34,233 nt of DNA, from positions 1 to 34,233 of the IMG/VR virus record IMGVR_UViG_3300049156_000026. One strand, 5' to 3'. Origin of the DNA: a virus. Each line of letters begins with the position of its first letter. Position 1 is the stretch's first letter. Below the pieces are notes generated by a model. The model ran no database searches and was not told where the DNA came from. It saw nothing but the letters and a program-made list of their open reading frames with translations. The translations under genes were made by a program, and so were the position numbers. Positions 8,743-29,792 of the stretch are shown here, in pieces.

Positions 8743-11250
8743 ATGAAACGTGAAAGAAGTGAGATAATCATAAGTGAAAAATTTTCCAGTCTTTGTACAT
8801 CTGAGTATGAATTAGGTAATGAAGATGAATCAGTTCCGAAGAAAAGACAAAGAGTGATAAATACGTCTGATTTAGTTAACCGTTTAGTAATTAATGTGGC
8901 TAATCGCCGGCCAGATGAAATTCTTCCTCAGAATTGTCGATTTGTTCAACCTATGAGCAATGGAGGGAGGGTCGTAGTTATTGAAGACCCTCCCTGTTCT
9001 AGAACAATTCATCTCGACATGAACCTGGAAGCTAATATTGAGAAGTTGAGGAAGACAGGAAAATTGGAACATTATGGTTATACAAAAGAATTGCAGAAGT
9101 TGTATAAAGAAGGACCTTACCCTCATCGGGTTATATTAGGTTTTCCATATGTTATTTACATAATGTCTATCACTAAATTCTTTGAACTATATTCTCTTAG
9201 AGTGTTCTATCGGGTGCATCCAATAACTAGTCCATCAGATTATCTCTTTCAACCAAACTTATTGAATATTGATGGCAGTTTTAATGTGTGCTTGGGAGAA
9301 GGTTCAAATAGTGGTGATAGTACTCCATCTACCTGTACTAAGACTATTAATAGATTTTGGAATAATAGTTTTAATACGGATTATCTTCAGGCATACAGAA
9401 ACTATGAAGATGTTGGAGAAGTATCCGATTTTCTGACCTGGCAATATTACACGCATCGAGATCCGATGTTTGTGTTTAAGGTGGATTGGAAACCTCACAA
9501 AAGAACTCTTAAAGAGGAAATCAGTAGTGTAGCAGGTTCTAAAGTACCAAGACCTGCTAGTTACAATTTCTATAAACTTACTGATTTATTCACTGAACCT
9601 ATTCGAACAGATGAGAAGAATGTTTACATTGATCCATGTGAAAGTATACTGGTGGGTGATACACCACTCTCTCTGGGCGATAAGATTAATATTGATGGTA
9701 AAGCATATTGGGTTAATGGATTCAAAGGTATGCTTGGCTATCCCCCACAAGCGATTGTTCTTGTGGACGACAAAGAAGAGATGACTGAAAAGCTGTTGAC
9801 TGAAAAGTTGAAGAATGATTTAGCGGAGAAGTTGATTAAAGTAAACAGCCTAGAGTCACTCGAATTGAGGAATGGACTTACCATAAAACCTGGAGATGTT
9901 GTCGAATTGGCAAATCCATTCAAAAGTTTTCGTAAGGTAAACGAAATCAGGATTGCTCCAGATGACAGCACTGAGGTTAAACTTGGAACAGACTTCTACT
10001 TTGCCGATGCTTTGGATTTGAAGTTGTTTGATCAGAAGGTGGAACTGTATGGTGTAGAGCTGGAACCAGGCCGTGAGTACACCTTGATAAATCGAGTTGG
10101 CGATGTTCTCGTTTATATGGGACGCCCCGCTAAACTTATGGGAATTGATGTTAATAATGAGGGCATGTTGAGCGTAATGTTCAAGGACGAAGAGTCTGGT
10201 TATGTAGTGAACGAAACTTATGAGTCTCTTGAACATCGGTATAAGTTAGTAGAAGAGGACACTTCTGTCTATTGTCCTGTTTTCCGAATTGGACCTAAAA
10301 TGTTTACGTCTGATGAGGGGGAGCAACGTCACAGGATAATGAAGGGTACTGGAGTTCTGTATACTCATAGTTACAGAGATGGAGCCCTAAGATTTCCTTA
10401 TGACAGAGGATTTGCTCTAGAGCATCTTTTGACAAATGGAGAGTTCAATCTTCCAAGTTATGATGTTGATTTAAACTTCAGGGTTGGGGATAAAGTGATT
10501 TTTGCAGACTGGAACCATCCTGAGGATATGACTACAGTGAGAGAGATAATAGGTATAAGTCACGATGATCATTATATTAAGATAAGCGCACAAAGTAATG
10601 AAGGCGATGTAAGGACTATGGAGTATGCTGATATATCCAATGGTCGAGTGTTTATTGGAAAGATTAGAAAAATTGAAGAAGAGTATAACGGTCTGAGAGC
10701 GGGCACAAAGTTGAAAGCCAATGCTTCGGGAATCAGTAAGTTTCCAAAGAAAGATGTAAATCAAATCATTGGTTTTTTAACTGACACTGGAACTGGTGTT
10801 CCGCTTATGTTGTGTTCGAATCGTTGTACACTTTGGGCACATGATGAATATCTTTCCAAATTTTCATATCTGCCTCCATCCTCTCAATTGTGGAGTCGGG
10901 TACAGGTTGCATCACCACCAACTAGGTTTGCACAACAACTTGGAGACCTTACCCTATATTCGTACTCTAGTAGATGGGCACCATATATGGTAAATAGGGA
11001 TGGTCATGGTAGAACAAGGAAATATCCAACTACCCATATGTGCAAGTACCTAACGAATGGAACCATATATCCGGATGACAGAGTTACAAAATGGGGTATA
11101 CTACAACCTCGTTTTACTCAGAGGCAACTTGATCAGTTTGAGGTAAAGTATGTCTATCCTAATATGCATGGTGGTTTCATGGAGGTCCCAGATAGAAAAG
11201 GTTTGAGAGTGAAGGCAGACTGGAGGTGTGCATGTTCAACGTCTTCGTAA
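8743..11250 (+). CDS. E2-like (PRTRC_B-type) protein with SH3-like repeats
   Basis: 835-aa protein. Residues ~125-250 look like an E2/UBC-type domain. QPNLLNIDGSFNVCLGEG (170-187) parallels the E2 active-site segment H-P-N-x(n)-G-x-I-C-L, making C183 the candidate conjugating cysteine. The surrounding pattern (VILGFPYV, LYSLRVFYRV) also resembles PRTRC system protein B. The C-terminal ~580 residues are unusual. At least five segments open with an x-x-G-D/T-x-V/L turn (SLGDKINI, IKPGDVVEL, LEPGREYTL, FRVGDKVIF, LRAGTKLK), suggesting a string of SH3/Tudor/KOW-like barrels. The gene leads the JAB-E1-Ubl cluster. The E2 assignment is from pattern, without a structure; the Ubl context supports it. 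Confidence 0.7.
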   Translation: MKRERSEIIISEKFSSLCTSEYELGNEDESVPKKRQRVINTSDLVNRLVINVANRRPDEILPQNCRFVQPMSNGGRVVVIEDPPCSRTIHLDMNLEANIEKLRKTGKLEHYGYTKELQKLYKEGPYPHRVILGFPYVIYIMSITKFFELYSLRVFYRVHPITSPSDYLFQPNLLNIDGSFNVCLGEGSNSGDSTPSTCTKTINRFWNNSFNTDYLQAYRNYEDVGEVSDFLTWQYYTHRDPMFVFKVDWKPHKRTLKEEISSVAGSKVPRPASYNFYKLTDLFTEPIRTDEKNVYIDPCESILVGDTPLSLGDKINIDGKAYWVNGFKGMLGYPPQAIVLVDDKEEMTEKLLTEKLKNDLAEKLIKVNSLESLELRNGLTIKPGDVVELANPFKSFRKVNEIRIAPDDSTEVKLGTDFYFADALDLKLFDQKVELYGVELEPGREYTLINRVGDVLVYMGRPAKLMGIDVNNEGMLSVMFKDEESGYVVNETYESLEHRYKLVEEDTSVYCPVFRIGPKMFTSDEGEQRHRIMKGTGVLYTHSYRDGALRFPYDRGFALEHLLTNGEFNLPSYDVDLNFRVGDKVIFADWNHPEDMTTVREIIGISHDDHYIKISAQSNEGDVRTMEYADISNGRVFIGKIRKIEEEYNGLRAGTKLKANASGISKFPKKDVNQIIGFLTDTGTGVPLMLCSNRCTLWAHDEYLSKFSYLPPSSQLWSRVQVASPPTRFAQQLGDLTLYSYSSRWAPYMVNRDGHGRTRKYPTTHMCKYLTNGTIYPDDRVTKWGILQPRFTQRQLDQFEVKYVYPNMHGGFMEVPDRKGLRVKADWRCACSTSS

Positions 11251-12251
11251 CTGACGGAAAGCAGGAATTGCCTGACGACGATATATTTTATGTGGTCGCA
11301 GGTAATGGCATTTACATTAGAAAGAAATTGGGAATCTTGGATGCTCTAGTTCCAGCAACCGGTATACCTCATTTAAATTATGTGGTGCCGTATGCAAGTC
11401 TGGACTTACCAAAGATCCCAAGAGATGATTTTGCCCAAATTGTTAGTTTCTTTAGAGAAGTTTACGACGAGCATAAGAGCGAATCAGTTTCTTTACTTCA
11501 CTTTAATCAAGACAAACAAGATTATAAGATTCAAATACCTTTTCAAGAAGTTTCTGGAGGTGCTGTTGACTATGAAAAGACTTTACCCTGGCAGAATCAA
11601 GGGTACATTCTTATGTGTACTATTCATAGTCATGCCGGATTTGGAGCTTTTCACTCTTCTATAGATGACTCAGATGAAAAGCATTTCGATGGTTTGCACA
11701 TAACTGTCGGAGACCTTGGTAAAGACCTCCATACTATTTCAAGTTCGATTGTTGTGAATGGTAAGCGTTTTGTAGTTGATACCGAAGAGTATGTTGAAGG
11801 AGTAGAGTCAGTCGAATACAGCAACTACAGTCGAGGTATGTTTCGTCCTATTCACAAAATGGTGGAAGGAGCGAAAGTTTACGAAAAAGATATTAAGAAG
11901 CAGAAGGGTTATTACGTTGCGGAAGTTCCCTTTGACCGTGTCTGGATGGACTTTGTAGAGAAGAAATATCCTACAGCTTCAGTCTATTATGTAGGTCAGC
12001 CACATGGACTTCAACGAGGTAGGGTTCAATCCCCTGCCGATCCCAGTGAGTTGCCCTACGGATCCTGGCTCCCGTACTGGTACAAACACGGAGGCCTCAT
12101 CATCGACCCCGACGACTACGATCCTCTCTACGGTCTTGAACCGGATGAAGGTGGTGGTGGGTTCTATACTGGGCCGGACTCGTTCGAGCAACTAGCCTTA
12201 ATCCCCGAGACAACTAGTGAGGAGCCTAGCGATGATGAACCACCCTTCTGA
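11232..12251 (+). CDS. JAB/JAMM (MPN) metallopeptidase, PRTRC_A-like
   Basis: 339-aa protein starting at ATG 11232, five bases after a perfect GGAGG; GTG 11226 is less likely. The JAMM zinc motif H-x-H-x7-S-x2-D is intact (H132, H134, S142, D145 in the HSHAGFGAFHSSID segment). These peptidases remove or process ubiquitin-like proteins. In PRTRC and related prokaryotic clusters a JAB protein sits with E1, E2 and Ubl genes, exactly as here. The C-terminal ~80 residues are a low-complexity Tyr/Pro/Gly/Asp tail in a GC-richer stretch, probably disordered. It overlaps the E2-like gene upstream and the E1-like gene downstream. Confidence 0.85.
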   Translation: MFNVFVTDGKQELPDDDIFYVVAGNGIYIRKKLGILDALVPATGIPHLNYVVPYASLDLPKIPRDDFAQIVSFFREVYDEHKSESVSLLHFNQDKQDYKIQIPFQEVSGGAVDYEKTLPWQNQGYILMCTIHSHAGFGAFHSSIDDSDEKHFDGLHITVGDLGKDLHTISSSIVVNGKRFVVDTEEYVEGVESVEYSNYSRGMFRPIHKMVEGAKVYEKDIKKQKGYYVAEVPFDRVWMDFVEKKYPTASVYYVGQPHGLQRGRVQSPADPSELPYGSWLPYWYKHGGLIIDPDDYDPLYGLEPDEGGGGFYTGPDSFEQLALIPETTSEEPSDDEPPF

Positions 12252-12936
12252 GTTATCCATCAAAGTCATAGGCGTAGGTGGGATTGGCACAATCCTGGCA
12301 GACAAACTTTCCAGGTTCTTGAATTATAGTAATGGAGTTGATACCAGGATTACTTTTGTAGATGGAGATACTTTTGAACCAAAGAACAGAGACAGACAAG
12401 AGTTTGTAATTGCTGGAGGCAAGAAATCATTAGTGAAGGCCTCTGAGTTTCAAGAGAAGTACAGCGAATTAAATTACAGTGCATTTGATGAATATGTTGA
12501 TCCCAGCAATGTAGGTACATTTATTAAGCAGGGAGACATAGTCTTCGTATGCGTCGATAATCATAAGACGAGAAAAATAATCTCAGATTTTACCAAAACA
12601 CTCAGTGACGTTGTTGTAATATCAGGAGGAAATGAGTTTACTGACGGCAACGTTCAAATTTTTGTGAGAAGGGAGGGTAGAAGTTTAACTCCGTCATTGA
12701 GTGATTACCACCCGGAAATTGAACATCCAAAGGACAGGACACCGGGTGAGATGACTTGCGAGGAATTAGCTCAATCAGAACCCCAGTTATTCTTTACAAA
12801 CCTTGGAGTTGCAACGTATATGTGTTTTGCATTCTACAATACTGTTGTGAAGAATAGCCCCAGTTACTCTGAAGTGTACTTCGATGTCCTATCAATGAAA
12901 GCAGATTCGAAATCCAGAAAACCCTTGAATTCCTAA
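12232..12936 (+). CDS. E1-like ThiF-family adenylyltransferase
   Basis: 234-aa ThiF/E1-type enzyme that would adenylate the C-terminus of the Ubl and carry it as a thioester. It has the nucleotide-binding GVGGIG (14-19), the FVDGDTFEPKNRDRQ segment equivalent to D-x-D-x-V/E-x2-N-x2-RQ, and VCVDNHKTRK. A candidate catalytic cysteine is C176 in MTCEEL, as in PRTRC ThiF proteins. ATG 12232 follows GAGGAG at good spacing; ATG 12235 and GTG 12217 are alternatives. It overlaps the JAB gene and ends 11 bases before the Ubl gene. Confidence 0.87.
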   Translation: MMNHPSELSIKVIGVGGIGTILADKLSRFLNYSNGVDTRITFVDGDTFEPKNRDRQEFVIAGGKKSLVKASEFQEKYSELNYSAFDEYVDPSNVGTFIKQGDIVFVCVDNHKTRKIISDFTKTLSDVVVISGGNEFTDGNVQIFVRREGRSLTPSLSDYHPEIEHPKDRTPGEMTCEELAQSEPQLFFTNLGVATYMCFAFYNTVVKNSPSYSEVYFDVLSMKADSKSRKPLNS

Positions 12937-12947
12937 AGGAGATCGGA

Positions 12948-13427
12948 ATGGCAAGAAAATTCACAAAAGATCAACTGGACGGGAAAACTGTCCCGGAACT
13001 TCGTGGCATAGCCAGAAATTTGGGTTGTGTTGGTTACTCCAAGAAACCCAAGGCTACTGTTATTGACCTCATTCTGGAGAAGCAAGGTCCGGTGGCGGCC
13101 TCTACTGCAAAGGCCAAGGCTGCTCCTGCGAAGAAAGACGACACAGTCAAACAGGCAGAGTTTAGCTTGCAGAGTGTTCTTACCAAACCCAGTGCCAAGA
13201 AGGGCGATAAGACAACCACAACTATCCGGGTGTCTTGTGGGGCTGCTGCAGGTGACTTCACTGTATGTGGTAAGACAGTCGGTGCCGTGTCTGAGTTCCT
13301 TCGTGAGGTCTTGAATATTGACCGGATGGCACAAGGTGTTGTCAATGGTAATACTGTTGACGGCAGCTATGTGCTGAAAGATGGGGACAATCTAGAGTTC
13401 CTAAAAGCGGCAGGCCGGAAGGGATAG
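12948..13427 (+). CDS. Ubiquitin-like beta-grasp protein with Rho_N-like N-terminus
   Basis: 159-aa protein. Residues ~8-46 are a Rho_N/SAP-like module shared with the protein at 8283. Residues ~47-88 are an Ala/Lys-rich linker. Residues 90-159 have the pattern of a ThiS/MoaD/PRTRC_C-type beta-grasp fold: a starting strand (TTIRVSC), a helix (AVSEFLREVL), the VVNGNTVDGSYVLKDGD hairpin (131-147), then a last strand ending at the C-terminus AGRKG. The chain ends in a single glycine, ready for E1 activation without trimming; PRTRC_C proteins likewise end in Lys-Gly. The gene directly follows the E1-like gene behind AAAGGAG. Assignment as the conjugated modifier is inference but strongly supported by context. 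Confidence 0.78.
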   Translation: MARKFTKDQLDGKTVPELRGIARNLGCVGYSKKPKATVIDLILEKQGPVAASTAKAKAAPAKKDDTVKQAEFSLQSVLTKPSAKKGDKTTTTIRVSCGAAAGDFTVCGKTVGAVSEFLREVLNIDRMAQGVVNGNTVDGSYVLKDGDNLEFLKAAGRKG

Positions 13428-13438
13428 AGTCAGAAGGG

Positions 13439-13576
13439 ATAAAAAGTTGCCTCCATTGTGGTGGTGTGGGTTATAAATCCCACACCACTGTATGGGGGGC
13501 CAAGTATGAAAGATACTGTGTTTGTGTAGAACTTCTGGCCGCATGGAGAAAACTTGGTGAATCTAGAACTTATTAA
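13439..13576 (+). CDS. Possible zinc-ribbon micro-ORF with no normal start
   Basis: The -1 frame relative to the Ubl gene is open from about 13374 to a TAA at 13574-13576. It encodes CLHCGGVGY, then YCVCVELLAAWRKLGE, a convincing four-cysteine ribbon with a CxxCGGxG knuckle. No ATG, GTG or TTG lies ahead of the first Cys pair; AUA at 13439 behind AGAAGGG is the best in-frame position. It could also be reached by a -1 frameshift from the Ubl frame. The 3' end overlaps the next start (13557) in the usual phage fashion. A strong hairpin at 13461-13488 lies inside it, so it could be non-coding. Confidence 0.35.
   Translation: MKSCLHCGGVGYKSHTTVWGAKYERYCVCVELLAAWRKLGESRTY
13461..13488 (+). other. 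Perfect 10-bp hairpin after the Ubl gene
   Basis: GTGGTGTGGG (13461-13470) pairs perfectly with CCCACACCAC (13479-13488) around an 8-base A/T loop. There is no T-run after it, so it is not a classical terminator. It may stabilise the 3' end of the Ubl mRNA or tune the downstream genes. Confidence 0.6.
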
Positions 13577-13970
13577 GAAATATGATGACCATTACCTTGT
13601 TAGAAATGAACAAGGCGAGGAAATTAAGTTGTACATAATTAAACAAGAAGAGCTCGACGAAATTAGGCATAAAGACAATCTTAAAGTTGTTGAGAAACTA
13701 CACTTTAAGAAATTGAACCGTCTTGCAGAAATGTTGGAGATTATTGATAAGAACGAACTCCTCATTGAGCATTATAAGACGTCAGCAACACGATTAGTCG
13801 AGCATTTGAAAATGTGCTATGATGAAGTTGGACGACCAAATGTATTTCACCATCATATAAAGAATCTTGATCCGGAACATTATGGTCGTGCTCAGACGTT
13901 TCGAGAAGAAACCAGAAGTTTAATAGAAAGAGTCCACGAGATAATTGAACTCAAACGTGAGTTGAAATAG
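13557..13970 (+). CDS. Hypothetical coiled-coil-like protein
   Basis: 137-aa protein taken from GTG 13557, preceded by GGAG at 13545; TTG 13554 is also in frame. It begins with a short beta hairpin (YDDHYLVRNEQGEEIKLY) and continues as charged helices with heptad-like leucines, ending with ELKRELK. No family is recognised. It lies between the Ubl gene and the second ThiF-like gene and is followed by a strong hairpin. Confidence 0.7.
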   Translation: MNLELIKKYDDHYLVRNEQGEEIKLYIIKQEELDEIRHKDNLKVVEKLHFKKLNRLAEMLEIIDKNELLIEHYKTSATRLVEHLKMCYDEVGRPNVFHHHIKNLDPEHYGRAQTFREETRSLIERVHEIIELKRELK

Positions 13971-13972
13971 CG

Positions 13973-14003
13973 GTGACCGGGATCATTTATTGATCTCGGT
14001 CAC
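13973..14003 (+). terminator. Strong hairpin, terminator-like but T-poor
   Basis: GTGACCGGGATCA (13973-13985) and TGATCTCGGTCAC (13991-14003) form a 13-bp stem with one G-T pair and a 5-base loop. The next bases are TATTCTC rather than a T-run, and a smaller hairpin (TTCTC/GAGAA) follows. It separates the Ubl cluster from the second E1-like gene and may be a weak terminator or processing site. Confidence 0.5.
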
Positions 14004-14041
14004 TATTCTCTAATTCGAGAACAAACAATAAAGGATCGAGC

Positions 14042-14911
14042 GTGAAACAAAGAATCGCAATCCTTGGAGTCGGATCTTTGGGTGGCTACCTAGCGGAAAG
14101 TTTAGCTAGTACTGATAGCCTAAAAGAATTAATTTTGATTGACCCCGATATTGTACAAGAGAAAAATGTTAGAAATTCAATTTACACAAGAGGAGACATT
14201 GGAGATTTAAAAGTAAATGCCATGTATAATCTCTTGAAGTCTCTTAATGAAGATATTATAATAGCAATATCTAGAGAGAAATTTATAGAAGGAAAGACTG
14301 AACTTCCTACCTGTGACTTAGTCATAGATTGTAGAGACTATGTCTATGACCGAGGCGATGCAATAGATGTTCGAGCATCTATTTCTGGCCGATACCTTAT
14401 TATCGACTGTCGAAAAAACATAACGTATCCCTTTAATTACGACGGTAGATATAACCTACCTTTAAAGAAAACTGATCTTAAAAATGCTGCTTTACAACTT
14501 GCTATCTTAATTGATAGTAACAGTATTATTAATCAGTGGGTAGCTGAACAGGAAATATACGAGATAAGTTTAGATCATCATGCAAAAGAGATTAGCAGAG
14601 ATGTTCGAGATCGAAGCAAAGATACAGATCTGGTTTACGAACCTGATGTAGATGATGCTAGACTATTAAAACTAGAACAGAGTTTTCGCCCAATTATGGA
14701 AGTAAATCAAGAGAGGGATGTTAAGGTTTGTTTGGGTGAGAAGGAGAGGCATGTTGGTTGTAAGATTGTTCCTAGAGGTCAATTGAATACTCCTCAGGCC
14801 GTAGTCTCTAGTCTAAAATCAGTTATGCAACTCTATCCGTTTGAAAGGAGTTTCATAATTCGAGTTGAGGGAGACCATATTCAATTACTGTTTGTAACGG
14901 GTGGTGCGTGA
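14042..14911 (+). CDS. Second ThiF/E1-like Rossmann protein
   Basis: 289-aa protein starting at GTG 14042 behind AAAGGA. The N-terminal Rossmann motif GVGSLGG (9-15) and the LIDPDIVQEKNVRNSIY segment match the ThiF/MoeB/E1 fold, including the Asp that binds ribose and the N-x-R-N region. The usual R-x2-Q and a clear catalytic cysteine loop are not obvious, so it may be non-catalytic or act by adenylation only. The second half (to residue ~289) is unrecognised and helical/strand mixed, ending in Gly-Gly-Ala. A separate role from the first E1-like gene (12232) is likely but unknown. Confidence 0.7.
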   Translation: MKQRIAILGVGSLGGYLAESLASTDSLKELILIDPDIVQEKNVRNSIYTRGDIGDLKVNAMYNLLKSLNEDIIIAISREKFIEGKTELPTCDLVIDCRDYVYDRGDAIDVRASISGRYLIIDCRKNITYPFNYDGRYNLPLKKTDLKNAALQLAILIDSNSIINQWVAEQEIYEISLDHHAKEISRDVRDRSKDTDLVYEPDVDDARLLKLEQSFRPIMEVNQERDVKVCLGEKERHVGCKIVPRGQLNTPQAVVSSLKSVMQLYPFERSFIIRVEGDHIQLLFVTGGA

Positions 14912-15236: not shown

Positions 15237-17942
15237 ATGCCGAGTCTTCTTGACATTAATGAGTTTTCTGCGGAGTTAAAAGAAGTTACCTCAATAAAGA
15301 TGATGGCGAAAAAGAAGTTCCATCCAAAAGGACTGTTCTCTGAGCAGATCTTCGGCCCGGTTAGGAATTATACATGCCAGTGTGGAACGTATTATGGAAT
15401 TTCGGGTGCTGGTGGAACTTGTGCTATATGTGAGGTTGATATTGTTAATAGTGATGAAAGGAGAAGGAAGTTTGCTAGAATAATCCTCCCCTTTCCAGTT
15501 GTGAATCCAATTTTCTATGAGCTAATAGCTGACATTGGGGGTTCTAAAGTGAAGGGACTCCTAGATGATTTGATGAGAAATGAACAGAGTATTTTATTTG
15601 TGCTAGAAGATGAATACGGAGTTACAACTAGTGATACAGCAGTTCCGTCTGGCGCAGAGAAATTTGAGAAAGTTGAAGCGATTGATAAACTTATAAGAGA
15701 CCTTTCCCATATGTTTGTTGAAGATGGTATTCTTGAGTGGAGAGTGATTCGAGATAACTTGGACAAATTGTTTATACACAATGTCCTTGTACTGCCCCCT
15801 GACCTTAGACCAGCTGCGAAAAATATCGAAAGAAACAACCAAGTGGTTGATCAAATAAATAGATATTATATTCAAATACTTACGAAGAAAGAAATTATGA
15901 GGGATACGATAGTTGATATACATAGGGATAAGAAGCTTTTCTATAGCTACTTTACCCAAATTCAGAAAGATGTGAATGAGTTGTATGCACACATCATTTC
16001 TAAGTTGGCAAAGAAGGAAGGTCTGATTAGGGGAAATATCTTAGGTAAGAGAATTGATTTTTCTGGTCGAGCTGTGATTATTCCAGACCCTGTATTGAAA
16101 TTGGATGAGTGTGTTTTACCTTACCTGATGTTTCTTGAACTGTTTAAATTACAAATATCTAAGAAACTCATAGAGATTGGCAGATTCAAATTGTTGAATG
16201 ATTCTATAGACTTTGTTGATGATTGTATAGAAATGAGATCTCCAGTACTCTATCGAGTTTGTGAAGAAATTGCTGAGGATGAAGTCTGTCTATTGAATAG
16301 ACAACCATCCTTACACCGACTAAGTATGGTTGGTTTTAACATCAAAATATCTCTAGATAATGTCATTAAGATCCACCCGTTAGCATGCCCTGGTTTCAAC
16401 GCTGATTTTGATGGGGATCAAATGGCAGTCTACATTCCAATTTCTGAAGAATCAAAGCAAGAAGTGAGAGAAAAATTTCTCATAACGAAAAATTTGAGTA
16501 ATCCTGCAAATGAGAGTTTGGCAACAACTCCTAGTCAAGATATAATTCTTGGGGTATTTGCTCTGACAAATGATACTTTTTCTGAATTATCAAATAAAGT
16601 TGAGTTTAAAGGAGAACAAGTTAGTGAAGGAGTAAAGATATTCAATGAGTGTCTACCAGAGGACTATCCTCTGATTAATGAAGGAGTTAGAAAAAGAAAG
16701 TTAATGGAAATACTCAATGATATTAAATCCAAATATTCTGAAGATATTGTTCAGGAAGTTCTGGATAAGATAAAATTTATAGGTTTTAAATACTCGACCT
16801 TGTTTGGAGCAACAATGTCACTTGACTCATTTGATGGTGATTTGACTAAAATAAAAGATGAAATATACTCAGACCAAAGTATGAGACATCAAATCGAGAT
16901 GATCTCTAATGAAAAAACTACAAAGGCGCTTCAGGATAGTTTTAAGTATTCGTATATGATTGAGTCTGGAGCAAGAGGGAGTTGGGATCAAGTCAGACAG
17001 ATAATACTGACCCGAGGTTTTATCTCCAACTTCAAAGGTCAAATTCTTCCAACGCCAATTAAGCATAGTCTTTTAGAAGGTTTGACCCATGAGGAATTCT
17101 TTAACTCCACATATGGTTGCAGAAAAGGACTCTTGGATGTTGCACTTAACACCGGAGCATCTGGCTACCTATCAAGGAAGTTAGTCTTTGCTTGTGCAAA
17201 TCTTCAGATTGGAGATCACGAAGATTGTGGAACGACTGATCTTCTTGAAGTCCATGTGAAGAGTGGCAGGAAAGCAAACATGCTAATTAATAGATTCTAT
17301 GATGATAATGGAAATCTAAATAAGATAACTAATGAGAATCATTTATCTTTTGTTGATAAAGTAATTAATATCAGAAGTCCAATATTTTGTAAGAGTCCAA
17401 AAGTGTGCAGAACATGCTATGGAGACTTGTATAAAGTTTTGAACAGCAGATTCGTTGGAGTTATTGCTGCACAAAGTCTGGGAGAATGTAATACCCAACT
17501 CGTCTTAAGGACTTTTCATACATCTGGAGTTGCTCATGTGAAAGAGGGAGAGCAAGCGGATGATGAAGCAGTAAGGCAAATGGATATTATTGGTGACCTC
17601 GCAACAGCATCTAAATTATTGCACAAGTTTGACAAGAAAGGTCACACAAGTATTGTCTCTGATCTCTTCGATGTCTATAACACAAATCGGAGCATCCATC
17701 ATGTTCATTTTGAATGTGTGGTTTCTCAATTGATGTGGAAAGGCACAAGAAAGTGGAGACTGTTGGAAGGACGAGAAAAGTTAAGTCCGGAATTTCATTC
17801 AGTACAGAAAGTGCCAAGTTATGAGAGTTGGCTATTGGGTTTAGCATTTTCAAGACCAAAGCAGCACATCTTAAAGGGAATTTTACAACCAGGAAGATAC
17901 TACGGAGTTATGGACAAGATTCTGTGTGGAAAGGAGTTGTAA
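15237..17942 (+). CDS. RNA polymerase beta'-like subunit (RpoC-like)
   Basis: 901-aa homolog of the bacterial RNA polymerase beta' subunit, shorter than the 1200-1400 aa of bacterial RpoC. The N-terminal zinc ribbon is present (C47, C49, C62, C65). The catalytic NADFDGDQMAV motif is intact (D390, D392, D394). The bridge-helix and trigger-loop region is recognisable (SGARGSWDQVRQ, then STYGCRKGLLDVALNTGASGY in outline). The second zinc site (DCGT, then CKSPKVCRTC) and the AAQSLGECNTQLVLRTFHTSG segment follow. The C-terminal ESWLLGLAF segment corresponds to the bacterial ESWLSAASFQ. The chain is unsplit, unlike phiKZ-type phage polymerases. It pairs with the beta-like gene at 18168. No alpha, omega or sigma gene is seen. 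Confidence 0.95.
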   Translation: MPSLLDINEFSAELKEVTSIKMMAKKKFHPKGLFSEQIFGPVRNYTCQCGTYYGISGAGGTCAICEVDIVNSDERRRKFARIILPFPVVNPIFYELIADIGGSKVKGLLDDLMRNEQSILFVLEDEYGVTTSDTAVPSGAEKFEKVEAIDKLIRDLSHMFVEDGILEWRVIRDNLDKLFIHNVLVLPPDLRPAAKNIERNNQVVDQINRYYIQILTKKEIMRDTIVDIHRDKKLFYSYFTQIQKDVNELYAHIISKLAKKEGLIRGNILGKRIDFSGRAVIIPDPVLKLDECVLPYLMFLELFKLQISKKLIEIGRFKLLNDSIDFVDDCIEMRSPVLYRVCEEIAEDEVCLLNRQPSLHRLSMVGFNIKISLDNVIKIHPLACPGFNADFDGDQMAVYIPISEESKQEVREKFLITKNLSNPANESLATTPSQDIILGVFALTNDTFSELSNKVEFKGEQVSEGVKIFNECLPEDYPLINEGVRKRKLMEILNDIKSKYSEDIVQEVLDKIKFIGFKYSTLFGATMSLDSFDGDLTKIKDEIYSDQSMRHQIEMISNEKTTKALQDSFKYSYMIESGARGSWDQVRQIILTRGFISNFKGQILPTPIKHSLLEGLTHEEFFNSTYGCRKGLLDVALNTGASGYLSRKLVFACANLQIGDHEDCGTTDLLEVHVKSGRKANMLINRFYDDNGNLNKITNENHLSFVDKVINIRSPIFCKSPKVCRTCYGDLYKVLNSRFVGVIAAQSLGECNTQLVLRTFHTSGVAHVKEGEQADDEAVRQMDIIGDLATASKLLHKFDKKGHTSIVSDLFDVYNTNRSIHHVHFECVVSQLMWKGTRKWRLLEGREKLSPEFHSVQKVPSYESWLLGLAFSRPKQHILKGILQPGRYYGVMDKILCGKEL

Positions 17943-18193
17943 TGAAAGTAGAAGGACTTCTTCACTCATTTGATGTATCTTGTCAAACGAGACAATTTAC
18001 TAGGAGGAGGTTACTGAGATTTATAAGATTGAATGATTACTTATTAGAAGACCATGCCCTTTATACATGGTTGTCAAAAAAAGTTAGTAACAATTATATG
18101 GCTGATCTTACAGATAGTGATGTGATAAATTTTGTAAGATGGATTGTCAACAAGACGGGAGGACAAGTTGAACATACTCAATCCGTACTTTAA
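17942..18193 (+). CDS. Small protein between beta' and beta genes
   Basis: 83-aa basic protein from ATG 17942, overlapping the beta' stop (TAATG) with AAGGAG just upstream. The C-terminal part overlaps the start of the beta gene. It is helical and rich in Arg/Leu/Tyr with no recognised family. Its fixed position between the two large subunits suggests an accessory polymerase factor (inference). Confidence 0.7.
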   Translation: MKVEGLLHSFDVSCQTRQFTRRRLLRFIRLNDYLLEDHALYTWLSKKVSNNYMADLTDSDVINFVRWIVNKTGGQVEHTQSVL

Positions 18194-21167
18194 AGTTAAT
18201 GAGGAGAGCAATATTTTCTCAATTCGAGAAAATGAACTCTCCTCATTAACCGAGAAAATAAGGGAAATACTGAAACCTGCTGAGGAGCTAGGATTCGAAG
18301 TAATTGACTTTTGTATCAAAGAGTCGAAGTTTACCTCAGGAGAGTTGTTCAAAACCCTAAAGCAAAACTTAGTCATTAAGTTACAAAAGGGCAATTCTGA
18401 GATTGATTTGAGTATGGCGATACCGAAACTCATTGACCGAAATTACATAATGATAAAAGGTAGGAAAAAGATTCCACAATTCCAACTTTTTGATATTCCC
18501 ATTGTTACAAGGGGAAAGTCAATTAAGTTGAGAACGAATGTTGCTTCAATAATGGTTTTTGAAGATCGGAATCAACCACACATAAAATTGAGTATCCTTG
18601 GCAAGAAAGTCTCATTTGCTTTAATCATGTTTGCTTACTATGGATTGGAAGAACTGAATACACGATTTGGTTTTTCCGATATGACAGTAAGTGGAAACAC
18701 TGCACTTGATAAGCTGATGCTAGACTTGAAAGTCTACTATGATAACTCAAGAGATTGGACCCAAGATGATTTTATGAATGAGATCGGGAGGCATTACTCT
18801 CAGTACAATGTGAAGTCAAAAGGAGAAGATCTTATATATGCTCTTGATTTAATTCTTAAAACTGATGTAATGTCAGCTGAATACTTTGCAACTGGATCTA
18901 TATTGGAAGAGTTATATGAGGCCATTGCTGGTAAGGTATATGATGATACCGACTTTAGAAATAAGAGAGTTAGATGTGCAGAATATATGATTTTATCAAA
19001 GGTTTCAAAGGCTGTCTTTGATTTATGTATGTCGAATAGGACAGCTCGACAACCTAAATTTAATATAAACTCATCTCAGATTCTCTCTGAGTGTAATGTG
19101 TCTGACATTGTTCAGTTTGATTTTGCGATTAATCCAATTGAAGAATTGACCAGGTTATCAAGAGTAAGTCTGATTGGACCTGGGGGTTTTAACCGTGAGA
19201 ATGTCCCTGAGCATTTGAGAGACATTTGTCCTAGTATGTTTGGGAGAATATGTCCAGTTGATACTCCGGATAGAGATAATTGTGGAGTTATTCAGAACTT
19301 GCTTCCAAATGTGAAGTTGGATAGTAATTTGAGATTTTCAGAGGAAGTTCTGGATAAACAAGTTATTTCTATTCCTGTTTCTATGGTTCCATTTCTTGAG
19401 CATAATGATCAGACGAGGTTGCAGATGTCTGCATCTCAGATGAGACAATCAATAATGCTGAGAAACTTTGATAGACCCATAATTCAATCTGGTTGTGAAA
19501 GTCTATATACTGACTTCACCCAGTTTGTTAAGAGAGCAAAAAAGGATGGAGAAGTAGTACACCAGGACGGCAAGTTCTTAATTGTTAAATATGATGATAA
19601 CGAACCTGAGATTTTTGATATTGCATATCGAAAGATATATGTTGAGAATATGGATATTATGAAAGTTTATGTTAAAGTTGGAGACAAGTTTAGTGCTGGA
19701 GAAGTTCTGGCTGAAAGTGGCTTTGTCACCAACGGGAAGATAAATTTTGGGAGAAATCTGCTAACTGCTGTTATGACATATTACGGTCACAATTATGAGG
19801 ATGGAATAGTTATATCTGACCGATTAGTTAATGAGCGAATTTTTACTTCTGTTCACTATAGAGATTTATCATTTACAGTTCCACCAAATAAAGTTCTTTT
19901 GAGTTTATCTAACGATGATTATAAACCATTACCTAATATGATGGAAGATATAGATCCTGGTCAACCATATGCGATGATGAAAGAAGTAACATCTGGTTTA
20001 GACTTTTACTCCGTTTTTGAAGAACAGATGCCTCTTACAACCAGAAAGAAGGTTCGAATAACTGATATAAATGTATATGCGAATGTGTGGAATGAGGAGA
20101 TACCTGAATACAGAGATTGGATTGAAAAGAAGTTAGAAGATCAAAAACAGAAGGAAGCTGAATTTCAAAAGGTCGTCTTTGATCACCTTCCAACTGTAGA
20201 AGCAAAACAGTTTATTAGAGATCGAAATTTAAGTAAATACTCTCACATTGGTCGGTACAAAGTTAAGGGCGAACCAGTTAATGGAGTTCGTATTGAGATG
20301 TTTGGTGTTTACCTTAGACCAATAGAGGCTGGAGATAAAATTGCAAATAGACATGGTAATAAGGGAGTTATCTCTAGGATAGTTCCACATGAGAAAATGC
20401 CTCAACTTCCGGATGGAAGGCATGTTGATATTTGCATAAACCCTCTAGGGATAATTTCGAGAATGAACATTGGTCAGTTATTTGAGTTACACTTAACGAT
20501 GTCCTTTATGGACTTGAAAGCAAAACTAATTAAAATGATTGAAAAGGAGGATACCCAGAAAAACCTTAAGAAAACATTACTTCGCTATGTGAAGACTGTG
20601 GATAATACTGAAGGTAACTGGTATTATAAACAGTTTGAAGAGCAACTTCCCAAAATAATTGACAAAGATTTTATTGATAGGTTGTCACTGATTCAACCCC
20701 CATTTGAGTCTGTTTCAATAGATATGGTCAAGGAAGCAATGAGGAAAACGGGAACTCCATTTGAGTATGATATTTATGATCCCATTTCAAAAGAGAAACT
20801 TTTGAATAAAATTGCTGTTGGTTATGTCTACTTTTTTAAGATGGTTCACATAGCTGAGACAAGACTTGCTGCAAGGGGAATTGGATCGTATGCAAAGAAA
20901 ACCCTTCAACCATTAGGAGGTAGAAAACACAGAGGCGGTCAGAGATGTGGAGAAATGGAAACTGCATGTCTAATTGCACATGATGGACCAGTCAATTTGG
21001 CTGAATTTCTGACAACAAAATCTGATTGTATAGACTTGAAAAATAGGTATATCAATGAGACAATTGAGTCAGAGTTCATCAAACCAATAGAAGAAGAGGA
21101 TTACGTTTCCGAATCAGTTAAATTGTTAGATGCATACTTTAATGTGATTGGAGTTTCGAAAGAATGA
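18168..21167 (+). CDS. RNA polymerase beta-like subunit (RpoB-like)
   Basis: 999-aa homolog of bacterial RpoB (usually 1100-1350 aa). The start is taken as TTG 18168, preceded by GGGAGGA; TTG 18144 is in frame but has no such site. Key RpoB motifs are visible: GRICPVDTPDRDNCG (bacterial GRICPIETPEG region), YGHNYEDGIVISDRL, GDKIANRHGNKG (722-733) with the catalytic-centre basic residues, and the C-terminal LQPLGGRKHRGGQRCGEME clamp segment. Reduction relative to RpoB seems spread through the lineage-specific regions. With beta' it would form the catalytic core of a phage RNA polymerase that transcribes phage genes without, or alongside, host subunits. Confidence 0.95.
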   Translation: MNILNPYFKVNEESNIFSIRENELSSLTEKIREILKPAEELGFEVIDFCIKESKFTSGELFKTLKQNLVIKLQKGNSEIDLSMAIPKLIDRNYIMIKGRKKIPQFQLFDIPIVTRGKSIKLRTNVASIMVFEDRNQPHIKLSILGKKVSFALIMFAYYGLEELNTRFGFSDMTVSGNTALDKLMLDLKVYYDNSRDWTQDDFMNEIGRHYSQYNVKSKGEDLIYALDLILKTDVMSAEYFATGSILEELYEAIAGKVYDDTDFRNKRVRCAEYMILSKVSKAVFDLCMSNRTARQPKFNINSSQILSECNVSDIVQFDFAINPIEELTRLSRVSLIGPGGFNRENVPEHLRDICPSMFGRICPVDTPDRDNCGVIQNLLPNVKLDSNLRFSEEVLDKQVISIPVSMVPFLEHNDQTRLQMSASQMRQSIMLRNFDRPIIQSGCESLYTDFTQFVKRAKKDGEVVHQDGKFLIVKYDDNEPEIFDIAYRKIYVENMDIMKVYVKVGDKFSAGEVLAESGFVTNGKINFGRNLLTAVMTYYGHNYEDGIVISDRLVNERIFTSVHYRDLSFTVPPNKVLLSLSNDDYKPLPNMMEDIDPGQPYAMMKEVTSGLDFYSVFEEQMPLTTRKKVRITDINVYANVWNEEIPEYRDWIEKKLEDQKQKEAEFQKVVFDHLPTVEAKQFIRDRNLSKYSHIGRYKVKGEPVNGVRIEMFGVYLRPIEAGDKIANRHGNKGVISRIVPHEKMPQLPDGRHVDICINPLGIISRMNIGQLFELHLTMSFMDLKAKLIKMIEKEDTQKNLKKTLLRYVKTVDNTEGNWYYKQFEEQLPKIIDKDFIDRLSLIQPPFESVSIDMVKEAMRKTGTPFEYDIYDPISKEKLLNKIAVGYVYFFKMVHIAETRLAARGIGSYAKKTLQPLGGRKHRGGQRCGEMETACLIAHDGPVNLAEFLTTKSDCIDLKNRYINETIESEFIKPIEEEDYVSESVKLLDAYFNVIGVSKE

Positions 21168-23182: not shown

Positions 23183-23261
23183 TACGCACGTAGCTCAGTC
23201 TGGTCAGAGCGCTGGTCTCCAAAACCAGTTGTCGGGGGTTCGAATCCCTCCGTGCGTGCCA
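23183..23261 (+). tRNA. tRNA-Trp (anticodon CCA)
   Basis: A complete cloverleaf. Acceptor ACGCACG pairs with CGTGCGT. The anticodon stem CTGGT/ACCAG holds the loop CTCCAAA, giving anticodon CCA. T arm GGGGG-TTCGAAT-CCCTC. Discriminator G, as expected for bacterial tRNA-Trp, with the 3' CCA encoded. Confidence 0.96.
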
Positions 23262-23588: not shown

Positions 23589-23664
23589 CACTGTGTGGCC
23601 AAGTGGTTTAAGGCAACGGATTGCAAATCCGTGATCCCCGGTTCGAATCCGGGCACAGTGTCCA
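23589..23664 (+). tRNA. tRNA-Cys (anticodon GCA)
   Basis: A complete cloverleaf. Acceptor CACTGTG pairs with CACAGTG. The anticodon stem ACGGA/TCCGT holds the loop TTGCAAA, giving anticodon GCA. T arm CCCGG-TTCGAAT-CCGGG. The U discriminator is the identity base for Cys, and CCA is encoded. A phage tRNA-Cys fits the many Cys-rich small proteins nearby. Confidence 0.96.
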
Positions 23665-24135: not shown

Positions 24136-24356
24136 GCATTACATGCTCAGTAGAGTGTGAAGACTTTGATAGTTTTTTAGAACACACTGCTGATATATAT
24201 TATTTATTTACACAGGATGAAATCATTTCTTATGGAGAGTTGCCAAAATCTGTAAGACAAGTAATTATGATTCGGGCTTTTGATGGAGGTAGAGCCACAG
24301 CAAAATGGAAACAAAAAAGAAGGGAGGAGCTTTATGGAGAATGTGCTACTGCTTAA
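24102..24356 (+). CDS. Cys-motif small protein (tandem copy)
   Basis: 84-aa protein from ATG 24102, preceded by AAAGGAG inside the previous gene. MLGYPCKTCIVGITCSVEC matches the family motif and resembles its upstream neighbour in layout: motif first, then an acidic helical segment. The end overlaps the start of the HNH gene by 23 bases. Confidence 0.75.
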   Translation: MLGYPCKTCIVGITCSVECEDFDSFLEHTADIYYLFTQDEIISYGELPKSVRQVIMIRAFDGGRATAKWKQKRREELYGECATA

Positions 24357-24855
24357 TGCTGACTACACTTATTTGTGTACGCTTCGTTGGCAAAGGGCGG
24401 TATGCCTTATGATTCAGAACAAAGTTGAAGTTTTGAAGCATGGTGACCGTCAAATTGCTAACACTGGGCGGACCGTCGTGATCACACTTCCTTTGATCCT
24501 GCGACTGTTGAAATTAGTTCGCTCAATTTACAAGAACAGAGTCCCCTTTAGACAAAGGAATGTATTGATTCGGGACAACTGGACTTGTCAGTACTGCGGT
24601 AGCACGGATCGAGGAAATTTAACAATAGATCATCTAATTCCGAAGTCTCGTAACGGAAAACATAATTTTGAAAACTGTGTGGCTTCTTGTAAAGATTGCA
24701 ACAACAAGAAAGGCAATAGGACTCCAAGAGAAGCAAATATGTTTATCAAGAGGCAACCTTATCAACCTACCATTTCTGAATTTCTCATGCTGAGAATGAA
24801 AGAATATGGAATCCATGATCTATTGAAGGAGATATGGTGTGAGTGCTCGAAGTGA
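24334..24855 (+). CDS. HNH endonuclease
   Basis: 173-aa HNH nuclease from ATG 24334 behind GGGAGGAG; the longer upstream frame is unlikely. Features are an N-terminal VLLLNADYTYL-x-L-x-WQRAV module, then the zinc pair CQYC (85-88), the catalytic TIDHLIP (D99-H100), N114 and a second zinc pair CKDC (119-122) with GNRTPREA. This is the widespread stand-alone HNH family of bacteria and phages, often mobile. It lies about 650 bases upstream of the repeat array but lacks any Nop-like domain, so it is not evidently a TasH effector. Confidence 0.9.
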   Translation: MENVLLLNADYTYLCTLRWQRAVCLMIQNKVEVLKHGDRQIANTGRTVVITLPLILRLLKLVRSIYKNRVPFRQRNVLIRDNWTCQYCGSTDRGNLTIDHLIPKSRNGKHNFENCVASCKDCNNKKGNRTPREANMFIKRQPYQPTISEFLMLRMKEYGIHDLLKEIWCECSK

Positions 24856-25220: not shown

Positions 25221-25238
25221 AAGGTGACCTACAATAGA

Positions 25239-25547
25239 ATGAAAGAACAACCGGAGCATATAAAACTCATTTGTGAGAATCTTAAAAAAGCTCACAATAT
25301 AAAAGTTATAAATATTACTGTAGCACTAGATGCAAATAACAAAGTAGTTCATAGTCATATGGAACATCCACAACCAATTACCAGGCCTACACTTATGGAT
25401 ATATTAGAAGGCCTACGAGAGCAAGTTATAAAGGATTATGAAGTATTGGAGAAATCAGCATCAACTATAGAAAATGCTGAGAGTATCCTTTCAATTCTAA
25501 AAAAAAGTGAACCAGCCCATGACAGAAAAACCAAGCATCGGGAGTGA
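25239..25547 (+). CDS. Hypothetical protein whose 3' end enters the repeat array
   Basis: 102-aa protein from ATG 25239 with AAGGTGA upstream; GTG 25224 also opens the frame. It is helical, with a central strand part (VINITVALDANNKVV). The last ~14 codons, starting at Ser-Glu-Pro, are encoded by the first repeat unit of the array, and the stop falls inside the second edge repeat. So either the array begins inside this gene or array growth has replaced its original C-terminus. No family is recognised. Confidence 0.6.
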   Translation: MKEQPEHIKLICENLKKAHNIKVINITVALDANNKVVHSHMEHPQPITRPTLMDILEGLREQVIKDYEVLEKSASTIENAESILSILKKSEPAHDRKTKHRE

Positions 25548-26052
25548 ACCGGTAATATCCAGAAATCCAAAAAAATCGAGTGAACCAGAAGTCCGCAGTA
25601 CCCAACGAACATGAGTGAACCAGAGTATGTCAGAACCCAACAAAAGAAAGTGAACCACTATGTATAAGAAACCTATAGAAACTAGTGAACCATGGAGCCC
25701 GAGTAACCCGGTGATCATGTAGTGAACCTAACTCTATCAGAACCCCTATTGAGGTAAGTGAACCACCCCGTCATAGAAATCCATCGTCTACTAGTGAACC
25801 ATTCGATGAAAGTAACCCATTGTAAAACAGTGAACCAGAAGTGGCCAGTAAACCATTCAGTTGGAGTGAACCATCTCTGTAGAGAAATCCAATGAACACC
25901 AGTGAACCACAGACTTTCAGTAAACCGCCAAAGAGCAGTGAACCAACAGGGAGCAATAATTCAGCGACCCGAAGTGAACCATTACCTTAAAGTATCCACT
26001 TTATTATAGTGAACCAGAGCGATATAGAAAACCAGTAAAATCAAGTGAACCA
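25506..26052 (+). repeat. TIGR-like dual-spacer repeat array (15 units)
   Basis: Sixteen copies of AGTGAACC (9th base A in 14) start at 25506, 25543, 25579, 25614, 25649, 25684, 25721, 25757, 25793, 25829, 25865, 25901, 25937, 25973, 26008 and 26044. A second, looser repeat (consensus AGWAAHCCA; for example AGAAATCCA, AGTAACCCA, AGAAAACCA) begins exactly 18 bases after each of the first fifteen. All length variation (35-37) lies in the second half. The ~9 bases after each repeat differ from unit to unit. Stops and frame changes exclude a protein-repeat reading on either strand. Known TIGR arrays give ~36-nt tigRNAs with two ~9-nt spacers between edge and loop repeats; the match in layout is close. 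Transcription and function are inferred. CRISPR is excluded by the tiny repeat and spacer size. Confidence 0.88.
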
Positions 26053-26070: not shown

Positions 26071-26565
26071 ATGAAAATAGAATATGCAGTGAAGTGTAAC
26101 TGTGGTAATAATTTGATTATCACAGATGCTACAATCAATCATCTAAAGGGAGAAATATCATTTTACGTTCATGACCATGAATGTGAAAGTCCTTTCTTAA
26201 AACTTCTTGAGTCAGGTAAGAAAATAAAAATGACAATCGAAAAATGTCAATGTCCCACTGGATCACATGAAGCACGTGGACGATCTATTGATGTACCTGT
26301 TATTGAAGGGGTAATGACTCTTAGGGCTGTAAGATTAATTCACTGTCCGACTTGCAAAGTCAATTATGTCAGAGATGAGTATCTAGAGGAGCTTGAACGA
26401 CAGTTTACAAGGGCAGGAATACCTACAAACAAAACTTTTCTGTGGGGAATGATCTCTAAAGGTTTAGACTATTGGGAACAGAAATTTGGCACTAAGTATG
26501 AAACTAAGGAGGAGGGCGGACATGGCGGAGCAGCAGGAGGAGAAGAGGGAGATGATGATAATTGA
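26071..26565 (+). CDS. Zinc-binding protein after the array
   Basis: 164-aa protein from ATG 26071 behind AGAAGGAT, 18 bases after the last repeat. It has CNCG near the N-terminus, a middle C-x-C pair (KCQCPTG) and CPTCKVNYVRDEYL, so one or two zinc sites are likely. The C-terminus is a Gly/Glu/Asp-rich tail ending DDDN. It has no Nop-like or nuclease motif. The end overlaps the next gene by 44 bases. Confidence 0.7.
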   Translation: MKIEYAVKCNCGNNLIITDATINHLKGEISFYVHDHECESPFLKLLESGKKIKMTIEKCQCPTGSHEARGRSIDVPVIEGVMTLRAVRLIHCPTCKVNYVRDEYLEELERQFTRAGIPTNKTFLWGMISKGLDYWEQKFGTKYETKEEGGHGGAAGGEEGDDDN

Positions 26566-27692: not shown

Positions 27693-27819
27693 TCCAGAAA
27701 GATATGGCTTCACTCAGTGCGGTCATTGTAATGGTTATGGAAGTTCTTTGAAAGAAGAAGCAGACAGGTGTACTGAATGTGAAGGTCTTGGATTAGTACC
27801 GATGAAGGAGAAAAAGTGA
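27658..27819 (+). CDS. DnaJ-type zinc-knuckle micro-protein
   Basis: 53-aa protein from ATG 27658 (AAGGAG upstream); the longer frame from 27613 is less likely. CGHCNGYG and CTECEGLG are two CxxCxGxG-type knuckles, as in the DnaJ cysteine-rich domain, enough for one zinc ion. The final bases overlap the FolE2 start (GTGA). Confidence 0.7.
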   Translation: MSEPSPFQLMIDPERYGFTQCGHCNGYGSSLKEEADRCTECEGLGLVPMKEKK

Positions 27820-28664
27820 GCACTTGCAAACTACCGGATGTTCAATGTACAGAACCAGTAATTAAAATACCAATTTATCAGGTGGGAGTCGAGAACGTTG
27901 AAGTTCCCTTTATGCTTGAATCAAAATTCGGGGGGTTTCACGAGATGGTTGCAAAAGTCTCGATGAGAACCAGTTTGGAGGATAATATCAGAGGGATATC
28001 AATGTCTCGACTCCTTCTCACCTTGAAACCATATTTAAGGAAACCTCTAAAACATTTTCTAATTAATGAAATTCTTGTGAGTTTGAAAGATAATATTGGA
28101 TCAACCTCTAGCTTTATGAAGTTTGAATTTAAACTTCCGGTACTGAGAAAATCTCCAGTATCGGATAATGAATTTCCTATTTATTATAACTGTAAATTTG
28201 AAGGGCAACTTGACAATGGAGAGTTTAGATTTTTTCAAGGCCTTAGAGTTCAATATTCATCTTACTGCCCTTGTTCAGCAGAACTGTGTGAAGACCTAGG
28301 CGGCAAAGGTTCGTCTGGTTATCCACATGCTCAGAGATCATTTGCTGATTTACTAATTGAGACAATAGAGCCAAATTATGTTTGGCTAGAAGATATAATT
28401 GAAACAGTTGAAATGGCTGTTCATACATTACCCTATCCAGTTATTAAGAGAGTAGATGAACAGGAGATTGCTCGAATTGCTGCAGACAATCCAATGTTTG
28501 TTGAAGACGCAATTCGAGCAATCTCTCACCAATTAAATAAGAGAGAAGATGTTTATGATTGGATTGTGAAGTGTACACACGAAGAATCAATTCATACATC
28601 TGAAGCAATTGCGATGAATTATAAAGGAGTTGAGAATGGATTCGATGGAAGATATTTTCTCTAG
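27816..28664 (+). CDS. folE2: GTP cyclohydrolase FolE2 (type IB)
   Basis: 282-aa protein starting at GTG 27816 (AGGAG upstream). It would convert GTP to 7,8-dihydroneopterin triphosphate, the first step towards folate and 7-deazaguanines. Family signatures are YCPCS (C153, the conserved metal/catalytic Cys), GYPHAQRS (H171; HNQRS-like) and a C-terminal ESIHTSEAIA (ESIH-x-H/x-D/E-A-like). The length fits the family. In phages this enzyme is mostly seen with 7-deazaguanine (preQ0-type) DNA modification genes; none of those is recognised in this window. It acts in the cytosol. The end overlaps the next gene. Confidence 0.88.
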   Translation: MSTCKLPDVQCTEPVIKIPIYQVGVENVEVPFMLESKFGGFHEMVAKVSMRTSLEDNIRGISMSRLLLTLKPYLRKPLKHFLINEILVSLKDNIGSTSSFMKFEFKLPVLRKSPVSDNEFPIYYNCKFEGQLDNGEFRFFQGLRVQYSSYCPCSAELCEDLGGKGSSGYPHAQRSFADLLIETIEPNYVWLEDIIETVEMAVHTLPYPVIKRVDEQEIARIAADNPMFVEDAIRAISHQLNKREDVYDWIVKCTHEESIHTSEAIAMNYKGVENGFDGRYFL

Positions 28665-29714: not shown

Positions 29715-29792
29715 CGGGCAGTGGCGCAGTCTGGCTAGCGTATCGGCTTTGGGAGCCGAGGGTCCCCGGTTCGAATCCGGGCTGCCCGACCA
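29715..29792 (+). tRNA. tRNA-Pro (anticodon TGG)
   Basis: Acceptor CGGGCAG pairs with CTGCCCG; the C1-G72 pair is typical of bacterial tRNA-Pro. The anticodon stem TCGGC/GCCGA holds loop TTTGGGA, giving anticodon TGG. T arm CCCGG-TTCGAAT-CCGGG. Discriminator A, and CCA is encoded. Confidence 0.96.

Follow-up and report, generated by a model that had tools for sequence, protein, structure and literature searches.

A dual-repeat TIGR array in a large phage-like virus, with a TasA-type protein probably encoded elsewhere on the phage genome

The IMG/VR record IMGVR_UViG_3300049156_000026 is a 34-kb virus contig (34,233 nt; this whole stretch is called the window in the following) and represents a fragment of a giant phage or large phage-like virus. 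At positions 25506–26052 it carries an array of two alternating short repeats. We interpret this element as a tandem interspaced guide RNA (TIGR) array with dual repeats, which is served by a TasA-type protein whose gene lies at another place in the phage genome, and assign a probability of about 0.93 to this reading. It is supported by the anatomy of the array, by covariation of edge and loop repeats between array families, by linkage of the edge repeat to Tas proteins in other phages and by a Tas protein encoded in the lineage of the window. TIGR-Tas systems were described in 2025, and their natural targets as well as the origin and change of their arrays were left open (PMC12045711). New here are the location of an array remote from tas, spacers that are inherited and a tentative signal for coding targets.

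The array contains 16 perfect copies of the edge repeat AGTGAACC between 25506 and 26051, the first starting at 25506 and the last at 26044, with spacings of 37, 36, 35, 35, 35, 37, 36, 36, 36, 36, 36, 36, 36, 35 and 36 nt. This confirms the original prediction of 16 invariant octamers recurring every 35–37 bases. In the whole window AGTGAACC occurs 18 times (1.0 expected; maximum of 5 among 100 shuffles), and the two copies outside the array (8514 and 8664) fall in an unrelated Pro/Glu-rich open reading frame (ORF). A second repeat, the loop repeat, had been predicted 18 bases after each edge start with the consensus AGWAAHCCA. With a looser definition of the loop this offset holds in 15/15 units, but the consensus is too narrow, as the strict composite AGTGAACC-N10-AGWAAHCCA occurs only six times (0 expected). 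The loop repeat is A-rich and degenerate, mostly AG[AT]AA[ACT]CC[A], with outliers in unit 13 (AATAATTCA), unit 3 (AGTACCCAA) and unit 14 (AGTATCCAC). Spacer A, between edge and loop, has 9 nt in 15/15 units, while spacer B varies between 8 and 10 nt and is the source of all length variation; both the roughly nine variable bases behind each repeat and the fixed first and variable second half-unit had been noticed correctly.

In published TIGR arrays edge and loop repeats of 8–12 nt alternate with ~9-nt spacers in units of 36 nt (Faure et al. 2025, PMC12045711). A box D-like element opens each repeat and a box C-like element closes it; both are shared and covary between edge and loop, and the loop is A-rich (PMC12045711). 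Edge and loop repeats of the window have the ends AG....CC(A) in common, and AGTGAACCA and AGAAAACCA fit the published plan. The loop sequence is compatible with an A-rich, tetraloop-like structure (AG-AAAA-CCA), and in the invariant edge AGUGAACC G2-C7 and U3-A6 pairs are possible. Edge and loop covary in their last base over 73 loci (A/A 50, G/G 6, C/C 3, T/T 1, discordant 2). A CRISPR (clustered regularly interspaced short palindromic repeats) array, defined by a single repeat type of 25–36 nt and spacers of similar size, is not present, as had been argued before: there are two kinds of 8–9-nt repeat with 9-nt spacers.

Since the contig holds no Nop/Tas gene, the array was searched for in other phages. 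An IMG/VR pattern search for three copies of AGTGAACC with gaps of 25–31 nt yielded 107 viral DNA stretches. Clustering of the ORFs around them revealed one dominant family of ~300 aa at 60–61 loci, whose gene lies on the strand of the array in 60/60 cases at a median distance of 46 bp. The family profile matches TasR (9mty, E 3.9e-30), TasH (21kl, E 1.7e-16) and, more weakly, IS621. All 16 family members tested match PF02371 (Transposase_20); DEDD_Tnp_IS110 is not matched. A tblastn search with the Tas family recovered the Salicola phage CGphi29, which is the published TasH locus. The proposed TIGR plan is thus substantiated by an anatomy as in PMC12045711, by the covariation of edge and loop and by the linkage of arrays with the same edge to Nop-domain Tas proteins. 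The Pfam model Nop (PF01798) was discarded as a Tas detector: it matched in 0/42 phages, several of which bear Tas according to other searches, and is too distant.

Two further loci were observed in these searches. In Microcystis phage Mvi-JY20 (PP438412.1, 21475–22059) a protein that is annotated as hypothetical is Tas-like (26% identity, E 7e-12); since this phage has a name and its host is known, TIGR targets could be tested in it. At locus L070 (G028:115334-116992) the edge is AGTGAACC but the loop is (G)ATTTTAACA, with a conserved G before both repeats and an adjoining Tas gene. The L070 arrays are a distinct loop subtype.

A search with the RNA polymerase beta' subunit led to five records related to the window, four of which (G018, G004, G006 and G020) carry an array between the same genes. 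Nucleotide identity to the window is 97% over 12.6 kb for G018, 87% for G004 and 78% for G006/G020, the latter two being apparently one phage sampled twice. The syntenic arrays have 44 (G018), 38 (G004) and 28 (G006/G020) edges, compared to 16 in the window (at most one mismatch per edge). G006 and G020 both encode Tas beside a second array of the same repeat. In G006 (277 kb) the gene for a Tas of 387 aa is located at 218138–219298, two further array segments adjoin it at 219406–220837, and the syntenic array (75526–76508) is 142 kb away. The search for a Tas gene suggested by the original prediction therefore failed in the contig itself and succeeded in these relatives with same-repeat arrays. 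An AlphaFold model of the lineage Tas (predicted local distance difference test score, pLDDT, 81) has TasH and TasR structures as its top ten PDB matches, followed by IS621, ISCro4 and Nop5. No RuvC or HNH match was found at the N terminus of this protein, and the coiled-coil region carries an insertion instead; it is therefore called TasA type. Judged by synteny, the array of the window would be the distal array of a TIGR system with several arrays and with an effector gene beyond the fragment.

The four related phages with orthologous arrays make array evolution directly readable. The array and its units, with homology scored as matching spacer bases out of 18 and G018, G004 and G006 as relatives, are as follows.

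25506–26052, + strand: whole TIGR dual-repeat array, 16 edges AGTGAACC(A), 15 complete units
25506–25542, + strand: unit 1, A GCCCATGAC, loop AGAAAAACC, B approximately AGCATCGGG; the first unit of three relatives is homologous
25543–25578, + strand: unit 2, A GTAATATCC, loop AGAAATCCA, B AAAAAATCG; G018 has an identical unit
25579–25613, + strand: unit 3, A GAAGTCCGC, B ACGAACATG; 18/18 in G018, G004 and G006 (in G006 in the Tas-proximal array)
25614–25648, + strand: unit 4, A GAGTATGTC, B ACAAAAGAA; 18/18 in G018 and G004, 14/18 in G006
25649–25683, + strand: unit 5, A CTATGTATA, B ATAGAAACT; found in G018 and G004
25684–25720, + strand: unit 6, A TGGAGCCCG, B TGATCATGT; G018 and G004 have an identical unit
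25721–25756, + strand: unit 7, A AACTCTATC, B ATTGAGGTA; 15/18 in G004
25757–25792, + strand: unit 8, A CCCCGTCAT, B TCGTCTACT; window only
25793–25828, + strand: unit 9, A TTCGATGAA, B TTGTAAAAC; 16–18/18 in all three syntenic arrays
25829–25864, + strand: unit 10, A GAAGTGGCC, B TTCAGTTGG; window only
25865–25900, + strand: unit 11, A TCTCTGTAG, B ATGAACACC; G004 has an identical unit
25901–25936, + strand: unit 12, A CAGACTTTC, B CCAAAGAGC; 17/18 in G018
25937–25972, + strand: unit 13, A ACAGGGAGC, loop AATAATTCA (degenerate), B GCGACCCGA; recurs in G018 and G004, and in G006 in the Tas-proximal array
25973–26007, + strand: unit 14, A TTACCTTAA, B CTTTATTAT; window only
26008–26043, + strand: unit 15, A GAGCGATAT, B GTAAAATCA; window only
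26044–26052, + strand: terminal edge repeat AGTGAACCA, followed by no loop repeat

Homologues in at least one relative (13–18/18 spacer bases, mostly at least 15) exist for 11/15 units, and none were found in the relatives for units 8, 10, 14 and 15. Unit order is conserved apart from units 11 and 13, which have changed places in G004. G004 and the window share several identical spacer pairs despite 84–91% identity of the flanking DNA, units 3 and 9 show no difference in G006, and conservation of spacers is frequent between phages with 78–90% identity of the flanks. In total, 30 clusters of units across genomes were obtained compared to ~2 by chance. Units 3 and 13 belong to the Tas-proximal array in G006 and to the distal array elsewhere, which implies that units relocate between arrays. 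As far as these comparisons show, spacers are inherited and units are lost and gained and occasionally relocated, which is unlike CRISPR-like turnover. Spacers conserved between related phages had been named beforehand as a sign of a protein-binding array. Such conservation was found; given the Tas gene of the lineage, it does not refute the TIGR assignment and instead corrects the implied idea of a CRISPR-like spacer turnover.

The divergence of homologous guides was analysed for synonymy at 63 variable sites from 23 such units, allowing any frame of a composite of spacer A, a gap and the reverse complement of spacer B, rc(B). In the phase of a 2-nt gap the non-synonymous load was 16.9 compared to 28.7 ± 2.3 for relocated substitutions (0/3000 permutations); the other gap phases gave z values of −1.4 to −2.6 and same-sense arrangements −2.3 to −2.9. 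The test hence favours a reading of spacers A and B on opposite strands, with the arrangement rc(B)-1-A being equivalent in phase to A-2-rc(B) and not distinguishable from it. One example is PEWxQA, with four variable sites in three phages that are all synonymous; further examples are DGQxHRV, IEVxIEL and IQxNHG. When codon context was shuffled while positions and alleles were kept and all frames were allowed, 2/2000 shuffles reached the observed synonymy. The pattern was first spotted by eye in the same data, and the permutation value is thus not that of a clean prior test. If the family of the window is restricted to very close homologues (at most two differences), no clear synonymy signal is seen.

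The substitutions are synonymous when the guides are read as A, two bases and rc(B), which suggests, at about even odds, that the targets are protein coding. A confirmed signal would mean that homologous guides allow identification of TIGR targets by comparative genomics alone. The strongest competitor, which in our view falls only a little short of an even chance, is that guide positions 3, 6 and 9 are structurally tolerant in the Tas complex, giving a divergence of period three independent of coding targets. Indeed, these positions of both spacers hold 35/63 variable sites (binomial p 2e-4), the pattern is symmetric in the RNA, and a context test restricted to that phase is not significant (503/2000). 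Against structural tolerance stand the mere 2/2000 codon-context shuffles over all frames and the published mismatch scans of TasR, which describe a two-base seed and tolerant ends and no periodicity of three (PMC12045711).

Searches for targets were carried out at several levels. When 209 units were compared to their own genomes in four spacer arrangements with gaps of 0–2, the expected arrangement showed no excess; the guides do not detectably point back at the phage. In 1.95 Mb of array-bearing phage DNA, searched with 1,062 distinct units, nothing clearly exceeded the controls. With one mismatch 17 matches were obtained compared to 13–24 for other arrangements and 5–12 for re-paired units, an excess that is at most marginal, and the one exact match belongs to an A/T-rich, low-complexity spacer pair. 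The exact composite of unit 3 gave 0 matches in viral contigs and 24 in genomes compared to 22 expected by our own estimate, with scattered taxa and no skew of the gaps. For unit 9, 28 viral matches (~8:3:7 independent families at gaps 2:1:0) revealed no target, nor did the viral scan with the IQxNHG composite. Three candidates were rejected. Matches of the DGQxHR composite were distributed 16:2:2 at gaps 2:1:0, but were located in many unrelated genes and in another reading frame and were therefore taken as a codon-phase effect. Matches of the PEWxQA composite lie in phage proteins that, judged by reading their sequences, are DNA polymerases, terminases and replication proteins; they were discounted because the motif is encoded by the pattern and the contigs concerned are matched by no other unit. 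Contig L266 was matched by two composites, probably by chance.

Several results weigh against the TIGR reading and its extension to coding targets. No Nop/Tas gene was found in the 34-kb contig, and the pairing of array and Tas rests on synteny rather than on one molecule; as the contig is a fragment, the missing gene does not show that the phage lacks Tas. A rho-independent terminator, which is usual but not obligatory in published arrays, was not found on the + strand at the array end. Other array families tested show no synonymy signal, which also favours structural tolerance, and none appears in a codon-usage phase test, which is uninformative. Finally, the search for paired-spacer targets in phage and other genomes, as proposed originally, revealed no natural target in five viral-contig scans and one genome scan for composites. 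Apart from structural tolerance, which concerns the guides only, two alternatives to a functional array have to be considered. A formerly functional TIGR array that decays in a lineage without Tas would agree with the lack of Tas in the contig and with the 15 units compared to 27–43 in the relatives, the fewest of the four syntenic arrays. It is improbable, since the edges of the window are perfect (16/16) while some edges of relatives are altered (AGTGGACC, AGTGTACC), and since the region holding the Tas of the relative is ~142 kb off and outside the coverage of the contig. Even less probable is an array bound by a protein, iteron-like or of another kind, that serves as an origin, partition or packaging site and only resembles TIGR, with spacers conserved as parts of binding sites: the non-coding, intergenic locus in a contig without tas and the homologues of 11/15 spacer pairs in related phages would fit, but edges are invariant while spacers differ completely among the units of one array, the edge repeat is tightly linked to the Nop/Tas family in dozens of other phages, edge and loop covary, and the lineage of the window encodes Tas beside a second array of the same repeats.

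For the dual-repeat TIGR array the following mode of action can be proposed by analogy to TasR, TasH and TasA. The array would most likely be transcribed with or between its + strand neighbours, and cleavage inside the edge repeats would release TIGR RNAs (tigRNAs) of ~36 nt consisting of half an edge, spacer A, the loop, spacer B and half an edge. Each may then associate with a dimeric TasA-type protein, which has a Nop domain and no nuclease and would be encoded elsewhere on the phage genome, with spacers A and B pairing to opposite strands of one double-stranded DNA site. As neither a RuvC nor an HNH domain is seen at the N terminus of this Tas, the target would probably be bound and not cut, resulting in a block of transcription or replication. 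Tentatively, the targets would be protein coding, and the two half-sites would be separated by two base pairs that the guide leaves unpaired. Taken further, a stable, vertically inherited guide set may be directed against protein-coding genes of other genomes, with dispersed arrays served in trans by one TasA and guides that track the synonymous drift of their targets across a two-base-pair gap, which would amount to programmed repression rather than adaptive immune memory. We regard this wider picture as speculative, with the odds somewhat against it.

The contig further encodes the beta and beta' subunits of RNA polymerase, Mre11/Rad50-like proteins and a helicase. The array is intergenic and flanked by two + strand ORFs.

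25224–25547, + strand: upstream ORF of 107 aa, no family; stop codon within array unit 2
26071–26565, + strand: downstream ORF of 164 aa, start 20 nt past the array; DNA conserved beside the syntenic arrays of the relatives

An HNH endonuclease gene is present at 24280–24855, 0.65 kb upstream of the array, with the HNH domains of IscB and Cas9 as closest models. The same gene is retained beside the syntenic array in G018, G004, G006 and G020 (86–94% identity). It is possible that it encodes a nuclease partner of the nuclease-less Tas, or just a homing-type HNH protein. Elsewhere in the window, a ubiquitin-like module extends over 8743–14911.

8743–11250: weak Prok-E2_D match
11226–12251: JAB/PRTRC_A
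12217–12936: ThiF/PRTRC_ThiF, E1-like
12948–13427: small protein with a TGS/ThiS-like end
14042–14911: second ThiF

The multisubunit RNA polymerase genes (beta' and beta) occupy 15237–21167, with a beta subunit ~25–30% identical to those of named phages. A FolE2 GTP cyclohydrolase (27816–28664) and a radical SAM protein (5741–6823) may belong to a pathway that modifies nucleotides or DNA. Genes for tRNA-Trp(cca), tRNA-Cys(gca) and tRNA-Pro(tgg) are located at 23184–23261, 23589–23664 and 29715–29792, respectively.

Among known systems, CRISPR arrays share the alternation of repeats and spacers and differ by lacking the two repeat types of 8–9 nt and the 9-nt spacers. The bridge-RNA transposases IS110/IS621 and the box C/D small nucleolar ribonucleoproteins (Nop5) resemble the system in the Nop/Transposase_20 RNA-binding fold and in guides that come in pairs flanked by box C- and D-like motifs; unlike in these, a DEDD transposase domain is absent, neither fibrillarin nor L7Ae was found as a partner, and the guides are arranged in a long array. 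TasR (9mty) and TasH (21kl, 9w03, 9w04) have a similar Nop core and are the best sequence and predicted-fold matches of the lineage Tas (387 aa), but carry a nuclease, whereas the latter has no RuvC or HNH match at its N terminus. Dual-repeat TIGR-Tas arrays with TasA, such as FpTIGR of Flavonifractor plautii (PMC12045711), likewise show alternating 8–9-nt repeats, 9-nt spacers, a unit of ~36 nt, 15 units, covarying repeat ends, a solo-Nop effector and location in a phage genome. The array of the window differs from them in its box D-like end AG instead of UG, in having no terminator after the array, in its position apart from tas (142 kb in the syntenic relative, whose second array adjoins tas) and in spacers that are shown to be inherited across phages.
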